Below the pieces are notes generated by a model. That model saw nothing but the letters and a program-made list of their open reading frames with translations. It ran no database searches and was not told the DNA's origin. Below, in pieces: positions 10,128 through 49,277 of a DNA stretch of 64,000 bases; positions within the stretch are counted from its first letter, which is position 1, and the number at the start of each line of letters is the position of its first letter. A program made the translations under genes and the position numbers. Source of the stretch: Caulobacteraceae bacterium (lineage in GTDB: Bacteria > Pseudomonadota > Alphaproteobacteria > Caulobacterales > Caulobacteraceae); NCBI GenBank assembly GCA_947475465.1, contig CANJLK010000011.1, positions 1-64,000 on the forward strand. The letters run 5' to 3'.

Positions 10128-10988
10128 TCAGCCCGCCCGGGCGGCGATGGCGTCGGCGAGGGCCAGCGTGCGCCGTGCCTCTTCCAGATGCAGCCGTTCG
10201 ACCATGCGCCCCTCGACCTTGAGCACGCCCTTGCCGGCATTCTCCGGCAAATCGAAGGCCTGCGCCACCGTCGCGGCCCAGGCGACGGCCTCAGGTTCCG
10301 GCGTGAAGGCGCGATTGGCGGTCTCCAGGTGACTCGGATGGATCAGGGTCTTGCCGTCGAAGCCGTAGTCGGCGCCCTGCGCGCACTCCCGCGCCAGGCC
10401 CTCAAGGTCGCGGATGTCGTTGTAGACCCCGTCGAGGATCGTCAGCCCGTGGGCGCGGGCGGCCATCACGCTCATGGCCAGGGCCGCATGCAGGGGGCCG
10501 CGGTCCGCGCCCGGGCGGCAGCGCATGGCCTTGGCCAGGTCGTTGGTCCCTATCACCCAGGCCCCGGCGCCGGAGGCGCTCGAGGCGCGGCCAAGCTCGT
10601 CCAGGGCGAAGAGCGCCTGCGGCGTCTCGATCATCGCCCAGATCGGGATACCCGGGCCGAGCGCCGCGCGCACGGCGGCGAAATCGGCCGACGCCGAGAC
10701 CTTGGGGACCAGCACCGCCTGCGGCCGCGCCCTGGCCATGGCGGCGAGATCGTCCGCGCCCCAGGGGGTGTCGAGACCGTTCACCCGCACCACCAGCTCG
10801 CGCGCGCCGAAGCCGCCCTCGCCGACAGCCTGCGCCGCCTGGGCGCGGGCCTCCGGCTTGGCGTCAGGGCCCACGGCGTCCTCCAGGTCGAGAATCACCA
10901 CGTCGCAGGCGAGGGTGCGCGCCTTCTCAAGCGCGCGGGCGTTGGAGGCCGGCAGGTAGAGAGCGCTGCGGCGCGGGCGGGCGGCCAT
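10128..10988 (-). CDS. HpcH/HpaI-family CoA ester lyase (CitE-like)
   Basis: A roughly 286-residue TIM-barrel lyase related to citrate lyase beta and malyl-CoA lyase. Seen: PRRSALYLPASN near the N-terminus, ILDLEDAVGPD (metal-binding acidic residue), RVNG, VLVPKVS, WAMIETPQA (metal Glu), and the C-terminal DGKTLIHPSHL. Such enzymes cleave or make CoA thioesters such as malyl- or citramalyl-CoA; the exact substrate is open. I prefer the ATG at 10988 over the TTG at 11009. It precedes the secreted protein gene closely on the same strand. Confidence 0.86.
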   Translation of the reverse strand: MAARPRRSALYLPASNARALEKARTLACDVVILDLEDAVGPDAKPEARAQAAQAVGEGGFGARELVVRVNGLDTPWGADDLAAMARARPQAVLVPKVSASADFAAVRAALGPGIPIWAMIETPQALFALDELGRASSASGAGAWVIGTNDLAKAMRCRPGADRGPLHAALAMSVMAARAHGLTILDGVYNDIRDLEGLARECAQGADYGFDGKTLIHPSHLETANRAFTPEPEAVAWAATVAQAFDLPENAGKGVLKVEGRMVERLHLEEARRTLALADAIAARAG

Positions 10989-11064
10989 AGGGGCCGGCGG
11001 CGGTTGCAAGGCGGGCGCTCCTCACGCATGGATGAACCCTACTCTTAGCGGTTAGGATGGGGGC

Positions 11065-13033: not shown

Positions 13034-13369
13034 CTAGTCCACCACCTTGAACCGGCCGCGGTCGAAAAAGCGCAGCAGGGGTTCGAGCTCGTGGCCGCGC
13101 TTCAGCACCATGTCACCCTGGCCCAGGATCGACCAGGCGCCCTGGCGGGCGGCGAGCGCCGGGCGCTTCTCGATCCGGTAGAGCGGCTGCTCGGAGCAGC
13201 GGCGATAGACCGAGAAAACGCAACGGTCGGACAGGCCGTCGATGGCGTAGTCGCGCCACTCGCCGGCCGCCACCATGCGACCGTAGAGCCCGAGCAGGCG
13301 TGTGAGCTCACGCCGCTCGAAGAAGACGCTCGCCCGTGCGGGCGAGGCGTAGGACGGATCCAAAGCCAT
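13034..13369 (-). CDS. DUF2794 family protein
   Basis: A 111-residue alphaproteobacterial protein of the DUF2794 family. Characteristic segments: VFFERRELTRLLGLYGRMV, AAGEWRDYAID, VFSVYRRCSEQPLYRIEKRP and LKRGHELEPLL. The function is not known to me. It is monocistronic, on the minus strand, convergent with the BI-1 gene. Confidence 0.85.
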   Translation of the reverse strand: MALDPSYASPARASVFFERRELTRLLGLYGRMVAAGEWRDYAIDGLSDRCVFSVYRRCSEQPLYRIEKRPALAARQGAWSILGQGDMVLKRGHELEPLLRFFDRGRFKVVD

Positions 13370-13435: not shown

Positions 13436-13631
13436 GGAGGGCGCCCAGAAATGACCTTATTCCCGACCCTTCGCCGCCTGATGCGGCCGCCATATTCCAG
13501 TTGTCGGTTGGTCAGGCGGTGGTCCCGGATCCTGAACAGCCCCCCCAGCCCCCCTGGGATTGGCGCATTGGCCAGCCGACACTTCCGATATGACCCCCGC
13601 GGGTGCTCTCCAGCCGCGGGGGTTTTTCTTT
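13436..13631 (+). ncRNA. Candidate structured small RNA with a C-rich apical loop
   Basis: No coding gene fits this plus-strand interval, yet it ends in a clear intrinsic terminator and folds well. Seen: hairpin GCCGC-CTGAT-GCGGC (13473-13487); a 13-pair stem, 13502-13514 with 13569-13581, including two G-U pairs; an inner 8-pair stem GGTCCCGG (13521-13528) with CTGGGATT (13554-13561); and a 25-base apical loop holding two C-runs (seven C at 13540-13546, six C at 13549-13554, the last pairing in the stem); then the terminator. A sequence GCTAGTTC at 13421-13428 resembles a Caulobacter -10 box, but I see no -35 box. C-rich loops pair with Shine-Dalgarno sequences in known alphaproteobacterial sRNAs. 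The 5' end is a guess. Confidence 0.4.
13593..13631 (+). terminator. Strong intrinsic terminator with no plus-strand gene upstream
   Basis: ACCCCCGCGG (13593-13602) pairs with CCGCGGGGGT (13614-13623) and is followed by TTTTCTTT. The T-tract is on the plus strand only, so it should end a plus-strand transcript. The gene to the left is on the minus strand, which points to an independent RNA. Confidence 0.8.
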
Positions 13632-13651: not shown

Positions 13652-14344
13652 TCAGGCCCTGGGCTGGCCGACGCCGAGAATGCGGCCGCCGTGGCCGCCC
13701 TGGACGATCACCACGGACTTCAGGCCCTCCTCGGCCGGGACCGGCAGGCGGAAGGCGGCCGGGCGACCGCGCCAGCCGCCCAGGCGGGTGACCTCGCGGA
13801 CCACGTTCTTGTGAGGAATGGTCTGCCCCTTGTTGTCGCCGCTCTTGACGACGACGTCGCGTTCGCGCGGGTCGTATCGGACCAGCCAGACATCGCCGCC
13901 CCCGCGCGGCGCGCGTCCCGAGCCGACATAGACCCTGGCCCCGGAGAAGCGGATGTCCGGCGGATCGCGCGGCGCGCGGGCGGCGTCGCCGATGAGCTTG
14001 ATCACTCGATCGCCCTTCAGGCCGGCGGCCTGGGTGCGGCCGTCCACCACCACCTGCGGCGTATAGGGCTCGCGCAAGGACAGCTTGGCCACATAGGCCT
14101 TCTGGCGTTCCGTGAACTCCGGCCTTGCGAAGGTGTCGGCCCAGCCGAGGTAATCCCAGTAGTCGACGGGGAAGGTGAGGGCGAGCACGCCCGGGCGTTC
14201 GGCCAGCTTGGCCAGGTTGGCGTTCGCCTCGCCGCAGGCCGCGCAGCCCTGGGCCGTGTAGAGCTCGACCACCACGGGCGGCTTGGCCACCGCCGAAAGC
14301 GGCGCGGCGAGCAGGATCAGGCTTAAAAGCGCGGTCTTCCGCAT
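13652..14344 (-). CDS. Secreted DUF1223 (thioredoxin-like) protein
   Basis: A 230-residue exported protein: signal peptide MRKTALLSLILLAAPLSAVA, then VVVELYTAQGCAACGEAN with a CxxC-type motif, followed by FPVDYWDYLGW, YTPQVVVDG and a C-terminal beta-rich part. These are the hallmarks of DUF1223, a periplasmic thioredoxin-fold family with unproven redox function. It is downstream of acnA on the same strand but separated by a perfect 14-pair hairpin. Confidence 0.88.
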   Translation of the reverse strand: MRKTALLSLILLAAPLSAVAKPPVVVELYTAQGCAACGEANANLAKLAERPGVLALTFPVDYWDYLGWADTFARPEFTERQKAYVAKLSLREPYTPQVVVDGRTQAAGLKGDRVIKLIGDAARAPRDPPDIRFSGARVYVGSGRAPRGGGDVWLVRYDPRERDVVVKSGDNKGQTIPHKNVVREVTRLGGWRGRPAAFRLPVPAEEGLKSVVIVQGGHGGRILGVGQPRA

Positions 14345-49202: not shown

Positions 49203-49277
49203 TGGAGCGGGCGAAGAGATTCGAACTCTCGACCCCAACCTTGGCAAGGTTGTGCTCTACCACTGAGCTACGCCCGC
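49203..49277 (-). tRNA. tRNA-Gly (anticodon GCC)
   Basis: On the minus strand the sequence opens GCGGGCGTAGCTCAGTGG, has a D-arm, an anticodon arm with CTTGCCAAG (anticodon GCC), a T-arm with GTTCGAATC, and an acceptor stem GCGGGCG/CGCCCGC followed by discriminator T and encoded CCA. All four arms pair. Confidence 0.97.

Follow-up and report, generated by a model that had tools for sequence, protein, structure and literature searches.

The closest described system is CC3664 (Rfam RF01530), a Caulobacter RNA that Landt and co-workers (2008) reportedly discovered by tiling array. Our literature search for CC3664 returned a single match, a Brucella vaccine PCR paper whose available text we take to be unrelated. 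A second family, BjrC174 (Rfam RF02355), is an sRNA of the Bradyrhizobiaceae, which the available part of PMC4842269 describes as abundant and with an active promoter, its start having the highest promoter activity among the tested starts without a mapped promoter. The literature search found nothing naming both CC3664 and BjrC174, and the Rfam clan column is empty for both. Among other small RNAs, GsrN (CCNA_R0081) also displays a C-rich loop on a Caulobacteraceae sRNA, a likeness drawn from its description and not from a comparison of sequences; according to the accessible portion of PMC5869019, this loop pairs with the katG leader, and gsrN differs from the locus studied here in lying near sigT/phyR genes in most relatives and in having a sigma-T promoter. 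SisA-D (alpha-r8) are similar in being widespread alphaproteobacterial sRNAs with siblings and a pyrimidine-rich contact stretch, but occupy another gene neighbourhood (PMC12559287, in the part available). Identity with SisA-D was ruled out, as the 10-mer of their contact stretch, UUUCCUCCCU, is absent from the 128-nt sequence considered below. CcnA is located in the chromosomal replication origin (PMC8959179, accessible text), and Hfq-bound sRNAs are listed in the portion of PMC11005374 that was available. CCNA_R0092, for which partial texts report a 23-fold cell-cycle change (PMC3829707) and an internal start (PMC8224329), was not used as an equivalent of CC3664, since no result in this analysis links the two.

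The window, by which we mean the whole stretch of DNA analysed, comprises 64,000 nucleotides from a Caulobacteraceae bacterium (GenBank assembly GCA_947475465.1, contig CANJLK010000011.1). Once the Rfam threshold was opened, CC3664 matched at 13503-13624 with 58.1 bits and an E-value of 2.1e-8, the whole model (positions 1-136) being aligned. The curated gathering score is 60 bits, 1.9 bits more than this, so the match stays formally below the cut-off and was missed by the default Rfam scan, which gave a tRNA alone. The consensus structure, the loop and the Caulobacter-type gene neighbourhood of CC3664 are all present at the locus, and stem and terminator are likewise shared. By position and sequence, the predicted window RNA is a syntenic copy orthologous to Caulobacter CC3664, a statement that we confine to orthology and do not extend to Rfam membership. 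The sequence-only reading had not recognised this locus as a known one. The window neighbours differ from those that the available part of PMC5869019 reports for gsrN in relatives, and no general stress response gene occurs among the identified ones. The features of the locus are:

13034..13369, minus strand: DUF2794 gene (Pfam PF10984), divergent neighbour kept alongside the RNA (synteny)
13443..13468, plus strand: upstream block conserved among copies, spanning -60 to -35 relative to the start of the hairpin; putative activator or promoter element (97 copies aligned)
13491..13496, plus strand: -10-like hexamer CATATT (alignment of copies)
Plus strand, between the DUF2794 and DUF1223 genes: small RNA gene, consisting of the hairpin at 13503-13580 and the terminator at 13593-13630
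13503..13580, plus strand: covarying hairpin of 78 nt (Rfam RF01530 match at 13503-13624, covariation, our own model)
13535..13553, plus strand: C-rich loop region, exposed apart from the CAG side of a clamp within it; putative pairing surface (unpaired probabilities)
13593..13630, plus strand: intrinsic terminator of the small RNA, a 10-pair stem (13593-13602 with 13614-13623) and a T-rich tail to about 13630
13652..14344, minus strand: DUF1223 gene (Pfam PF06764 and synteny), convergent to the small RNA
10128-11009: citrate-lyase-type gene

In the window the aconitase gene acnA lies beyond the DUF1223 gene. In C. crescentus, CCNA_03774 encodes a citrate lyase (PMC11005374, accessible part), and the citrate-lyase-type gene of the window would fit the naming of CC3664. 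Elsewhere in the window, a tRNA gene at 49206-49277 on the minus strand is the sole RNA family above its Rfam cut-off.

In the minimum-energy fold, positions 13503-13515 pair with 13568-13580 to form the outer helix, above which stand 3 and 9 further pairs. The 13-pair outer stem had been placed earlier, in the same register, at 13502-13514 with 13569-13581, and the inner stem, although present as proposed, has 9 pairs instead of 8. A three-pair CUG/CAG clamp (13532-13534 with 13546-13548) cuts into the C7-AG-C6 loop, whose seven C occupy 13540-13546 and whose six C occupy 13549-13554, the sequence of the loop side being CTGAACAGCCCCCCCAGCCCCCC. The unpaired probability is at least 0.93 at 13535-13545 and 13549-13552, but drops to 0.75 and 0.10 at the final two C. 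The interval 13436-13631 folds at -90.8 kcal/mol, with a z-score of -3.1 against dinucleotide shuffles, one of 200 of which was equally stable. The long hairpin with its runs of seven and six C and the plus-strand terminator, all proposed from the sequence, are thus borne out by the fold, the CC3664 match and covariation. We infer that 13503 is the 5' end of the small RNA, and the likely transcript, with both ends predicted from sequence, would be about 128 nt long (13503 to about 13630); the 150-200 nt expected previously appears too long, and 13443-13468 is better read as promoter DNA.

CC3664 matches were detected in the own genome and 46 of 47 others of the genus, across the family in 211 of 249 genomes (21 of 22 genera) and in one of 32 genomes from other families of the order, these counts being lower bounds because the search filters are strict. 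The cut-off itself was exceeded in 31 of 80 relatives and, within the family, in 101 of 249 genomes. Caulobacter vibrioides alone matched among 14 named control genomes, and a plasmid collection searched for the RNA gave no match. DUF2794 and DUF1223 are present at all 60 of the best CC3664 loci (L003-L032 and L064-L093) and acnA at 52 of them; at one locus, L012, DUF2794 is 1.4 kb distant. Covariation, for which the sequence-only reading had proposed a search, is present in the stem: across 52 aligned hairpins, 94.8% of 1138 cells are paired and 13 of 22 pairs are altered on both sides, a result reached by none of 500 shuffles. These hairpins were chosen by the loop motif and trimmed at GTCGG/CCGAC-like ends, a procedure that builds in part of the conservation of the loop and first pairs. 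The loop GAACAGCCCCCCCAGCCCC is exact in 58 of 60 loci chosen by the Rfam model, a model that itself contains the loop, and is far more constant than the stems. G.U cells number 176 in the aligned hairpins, as against 11 A.C cells, which together with the covariation marks the plus strand as the RNA. A terminator follows the hairpin on this strand in 87 of 97 distinct copies; the opposite strand gave 37 and shuffled sequence 14. The comparison gives good support to the predicted small RNA and its exposed C-rich loop. This is a real small RNA gene, known in outline and lying just below the database cut-off, and the surprise is its breadth and constancy, together with the probable merging of two separately named orphan families into one.

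The gap-free alignment of the 97 copies on the hairpin start yielded the block consensus GCCnYGAAATGACCTTATTTCGGTCC, followed by CGCC at -28 to -25 and an A/T-rich -10-like stretch; a sigma-70 consensus scan did not detect the -10-like hexamer at 13491-13496. A related block, roughly GCCnnATTTCGGCC, is similarly placed, with spacing judged by eye, in distant members as well as in copies that lack DUF2794. The near-constant distance and variable intervening sequence suggest the geometry of a DNA-protein contact, for example an activator site over the -35 region, and the block is probably a promoter element. Against this, the Rfam model of BjrC174 has its start about 84 nt before the hairpin, so that the block may be transcribed there. 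A general regulon motif was considered and rejected: in the own genome the block has 15 matches with at most two mismatches, compared with 5 for the reversed pattern, and those outside the sRNA locus are, by eye, mostly coding or single.

Further copies of the hairpin were encountered both in tandem and dispersed. The window locus differs from Caulobacter-type loci in having one hairpin, as opposed to a tandem pair between DUF2794 and DUF1223 in 27 of 30 of the latter (L064-L093; 25 of 30 by a stricter pattern). The stem of the second tandem hairpin has diverged in loci of this type. A second copy in the own genome (G000:C15:419-494, minus strand; equivalent to L002:419-494) lies immediately upstream of purL and is without an evident terminator. 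Across 16 dispersed loci of the genus, purL is downstream in 4, once at about 0.6 kb, and a terminator is seen by eye in a few and is absent in most. The hairpin and the upstream block occur together near purL in the dispersed copies L002 (own genome), L036, L040 and L044.

To follow the RNA into far relatives, we used the best 80 of 583 loci, in named records, from a DUF2794 search. Motif and fold identified the hairpin in 14 of the 80, all close relatives, and a covariance model (R1) of 9 of these, from Caulobacterales only, was run on the other 66. It matched in 35 at E-values up to 1 (25 of these at about 0.01 or lower); every hairpin found is oriented divergently to DUF2794, at a distance of 120-368 nt from the match to that gene. 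The matched genera include Bradyrhizobium, Rhodopseudomonas, Rhodoplanes, Bosea, Microvirga, Kaistia, Parvibaculum, Pannonibacter, Roseibium, Parvularcula, Marinicaulis, Aquisalinus, Robiginitomaculum and Asticcacaulis, and the neighbours at these 35 loci include Bax1-I in 27, acnA in 11 and DUF1223 in 9. Within the same 66 loci, R1 found no match in Rhizobium, Neorhizobium or Aureimonas, nor in 7 of 8 Rhodobacteraceae-type loci (the exception being L170 at E 0.78); the Roseibium-like L110, L115 and L143 have the loop motif without an R1 match. The alignment fitted to R1, which is biased towards structure, has 90.5% of 819 cells paired and 21 of 22 pairs altered on both sides, and none of 500 shuffles scored as high. 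As a separate observation, the loop unit AGCCCCCC is present a third time near 2664 on the minus strand of L126.

A scan of 40 distant or intermediate loci with the curated Rfam models placed BjrC174 over the hairpin in 11 and CC3664 in none. In two Bradyrhizobium genomes (L136 and L140) BjrC174 scored 179 bits and R1 matched the hairpin at E 0.01, the gene order being Bax1-I / DUF2794 / RNA / DUF1223 / acnA. BjrC174 thus resembles the window RNA in its place beside DUF2794, DUF1223 and acnA and in a hairpin matched by a Caulobacterales-only model, but differs in stem sequence, and its own model gave no match to the window at E-values up to 10. With locus and hairpin shared, the predicted window RNA is probably homologous to BjrC174. 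The hairpin, the divergent DUF2794 site and the gene order that CC3664 and BjrC174 have in common suggest that they are branches of one old family in which the C-rich loop has hardly changed.

A second model (R2), built from the R1 matches, permitted a search independent of DUF2794. In 289 genomes across the class it gave 16 matches besides the own genome at E-values up to 0.01, a cut-off at which about 3 chance matches are expected, and left 272 genomes without a match; DUF2794 lies within about 1.5 kb at 12 of the 16 loci. A second draw of 199 genomes, made as a 'phylum' set whose listed genomes all belong to the same class and which says nothing on other classes, gave 14 matches besides the own genome; its 12 newly fetched loci include DUF2794 in 10 and DUF1223 together with acnA in one. 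Presence is underestimated by R2 because few candidates were scored per genome, yet the family is surely also absent from many lineages.

As to what the RNA does, we consider it probable that the locus is a stand-alone sRNA gene of CC3664/BjrC174 type, the loop of which pairs in trans with G-rich RNA. In such a mechanism a promoter with the conserved upstream block, a presumed activator site, would start the RNA near 13503 and the intrinsic terminator near 13630 would end it at about 128 nt. The long covarying stem, which the comparison supports, would display the nearly invariant loop GAACAGCCCCCCCAGCCCC, and the loop would most likely pair with G-rich sites, located either in another RNA or close to mRNA ribosome binding sites, and thereby alter translation or stability. 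For the pairing step, the contact of the GsrN loop with the katG leader offers a parallel. The trans-acting sRNA proposed by the sequence-only reading accordingly keeps its well-supported half, the small RNA whose C-rich loop is exposed, while its action on G-rich ribosome binding sites stays unproven, with no conserved target found. Target prediction against 5' regions, also proposed there, showed no excess complementarity for the neighbouring genes: measured against mononucleotide shuffles, in a set that excludes acnA, the mean z-score of the loop was -0.06 for DUF2794 (70 loci), 0.12 for DUF1223 (43), 0.27 for Bax1-I (28) and 0.57 for LigT (4). The 12-mer loop complement has 20 sites in 10 genomes, where no gene was seen to recur, the neighbours of the sites being unanalysed. 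In G626, a relative of lower GC (47% in 30 loci), TGGGGGG is commoner than its reverse (127 versus 72); 91 distinct sites out of the 127 were examined, of which 2 are the antisense of the sRNA itself and 6 have a start codon just downstream. At one of them (L246; G626:C1), before a CitMHS/TrkA_C permease gene, 13 nt of the ribosome binding region are perfectly complementary to the local sRNA. This site was chosen after the fact and does not rank among the best 14 by energy, and 12 other genomes gave no match to the gene at E 1e-40; the permease is a weak lead as a target.

That no conserved RNA target emerged from these searches, and that the loop is so much more constant than the stems, would also suit a real sRNA whose loop titrates a protein binding C-rich single strands, Rho being a thinkable case. 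We regard such titration as unlikely; no candidate protein was identified, and GsrN, the related Caulobacter C-rich loop, acts by pairing according to the accessible part of PMC5869019. Still less likely, in our estimate, is an sRNA acting chiefly as a sponge for another RNA, the role that CrfA has towards SisA-D: such RNAs exist in Caulobacter (PMC12559287, available text) and a long invariant loop would suit a single constant partner, but no G-rich partner RNA was found in a search that was not systematic.

The position of the hairpin 120-368 nt upstream of the DUF2794 match in 35 distant loci raises the alternative of a conserved minus-strand 5' leader of DUF2794 with a G-rich loop. We judge this very improbable and reject it, as both the G.U to A.C ratio and the terminator counts given above favour the plus strand, and the hairpin and upstream block are kept in dispersed copies without DUF2794. 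A short coding transcript or antisense open frame is barely conceivable and was likewise rejected: a 291-aa plus-strand ORF does begin at 13451, but it lies opposite DUF1223, and the 52 aligned hairpins (77-91 nt) have lengths in all three phases (10, 30 and 12) and a stop in 28, 26 and 21 rows for frames 0, 1 and 2.

Returning to the trans-acting small RNA, we hold it slightly better than an even chance that one ancestral alphaproteobacteria-wide sRNA stands behind CC3664 and BjrC174, set in a fixed block of Bax1-I / DUF2794 / sRNA / DUF1223 / acnA in lineages from Caulobacteraceae to Bradyrhizobium, under the control of a dedicated activator that uses the upstream block, and acting with its nearly invariant C-rich loop on a conserved partner; a loop so constant suggests a constant partner. 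Two orphan RNAs of well-studied bacteria would thereby become one question, that of a conserved locus, upstream block and loop, and DUF2794, a protein of unknown function, is now linked with an RNA gene. What is learnt in Caulobacter or Bradyrhizobium would then apply to other alphaproteobacteria as well.
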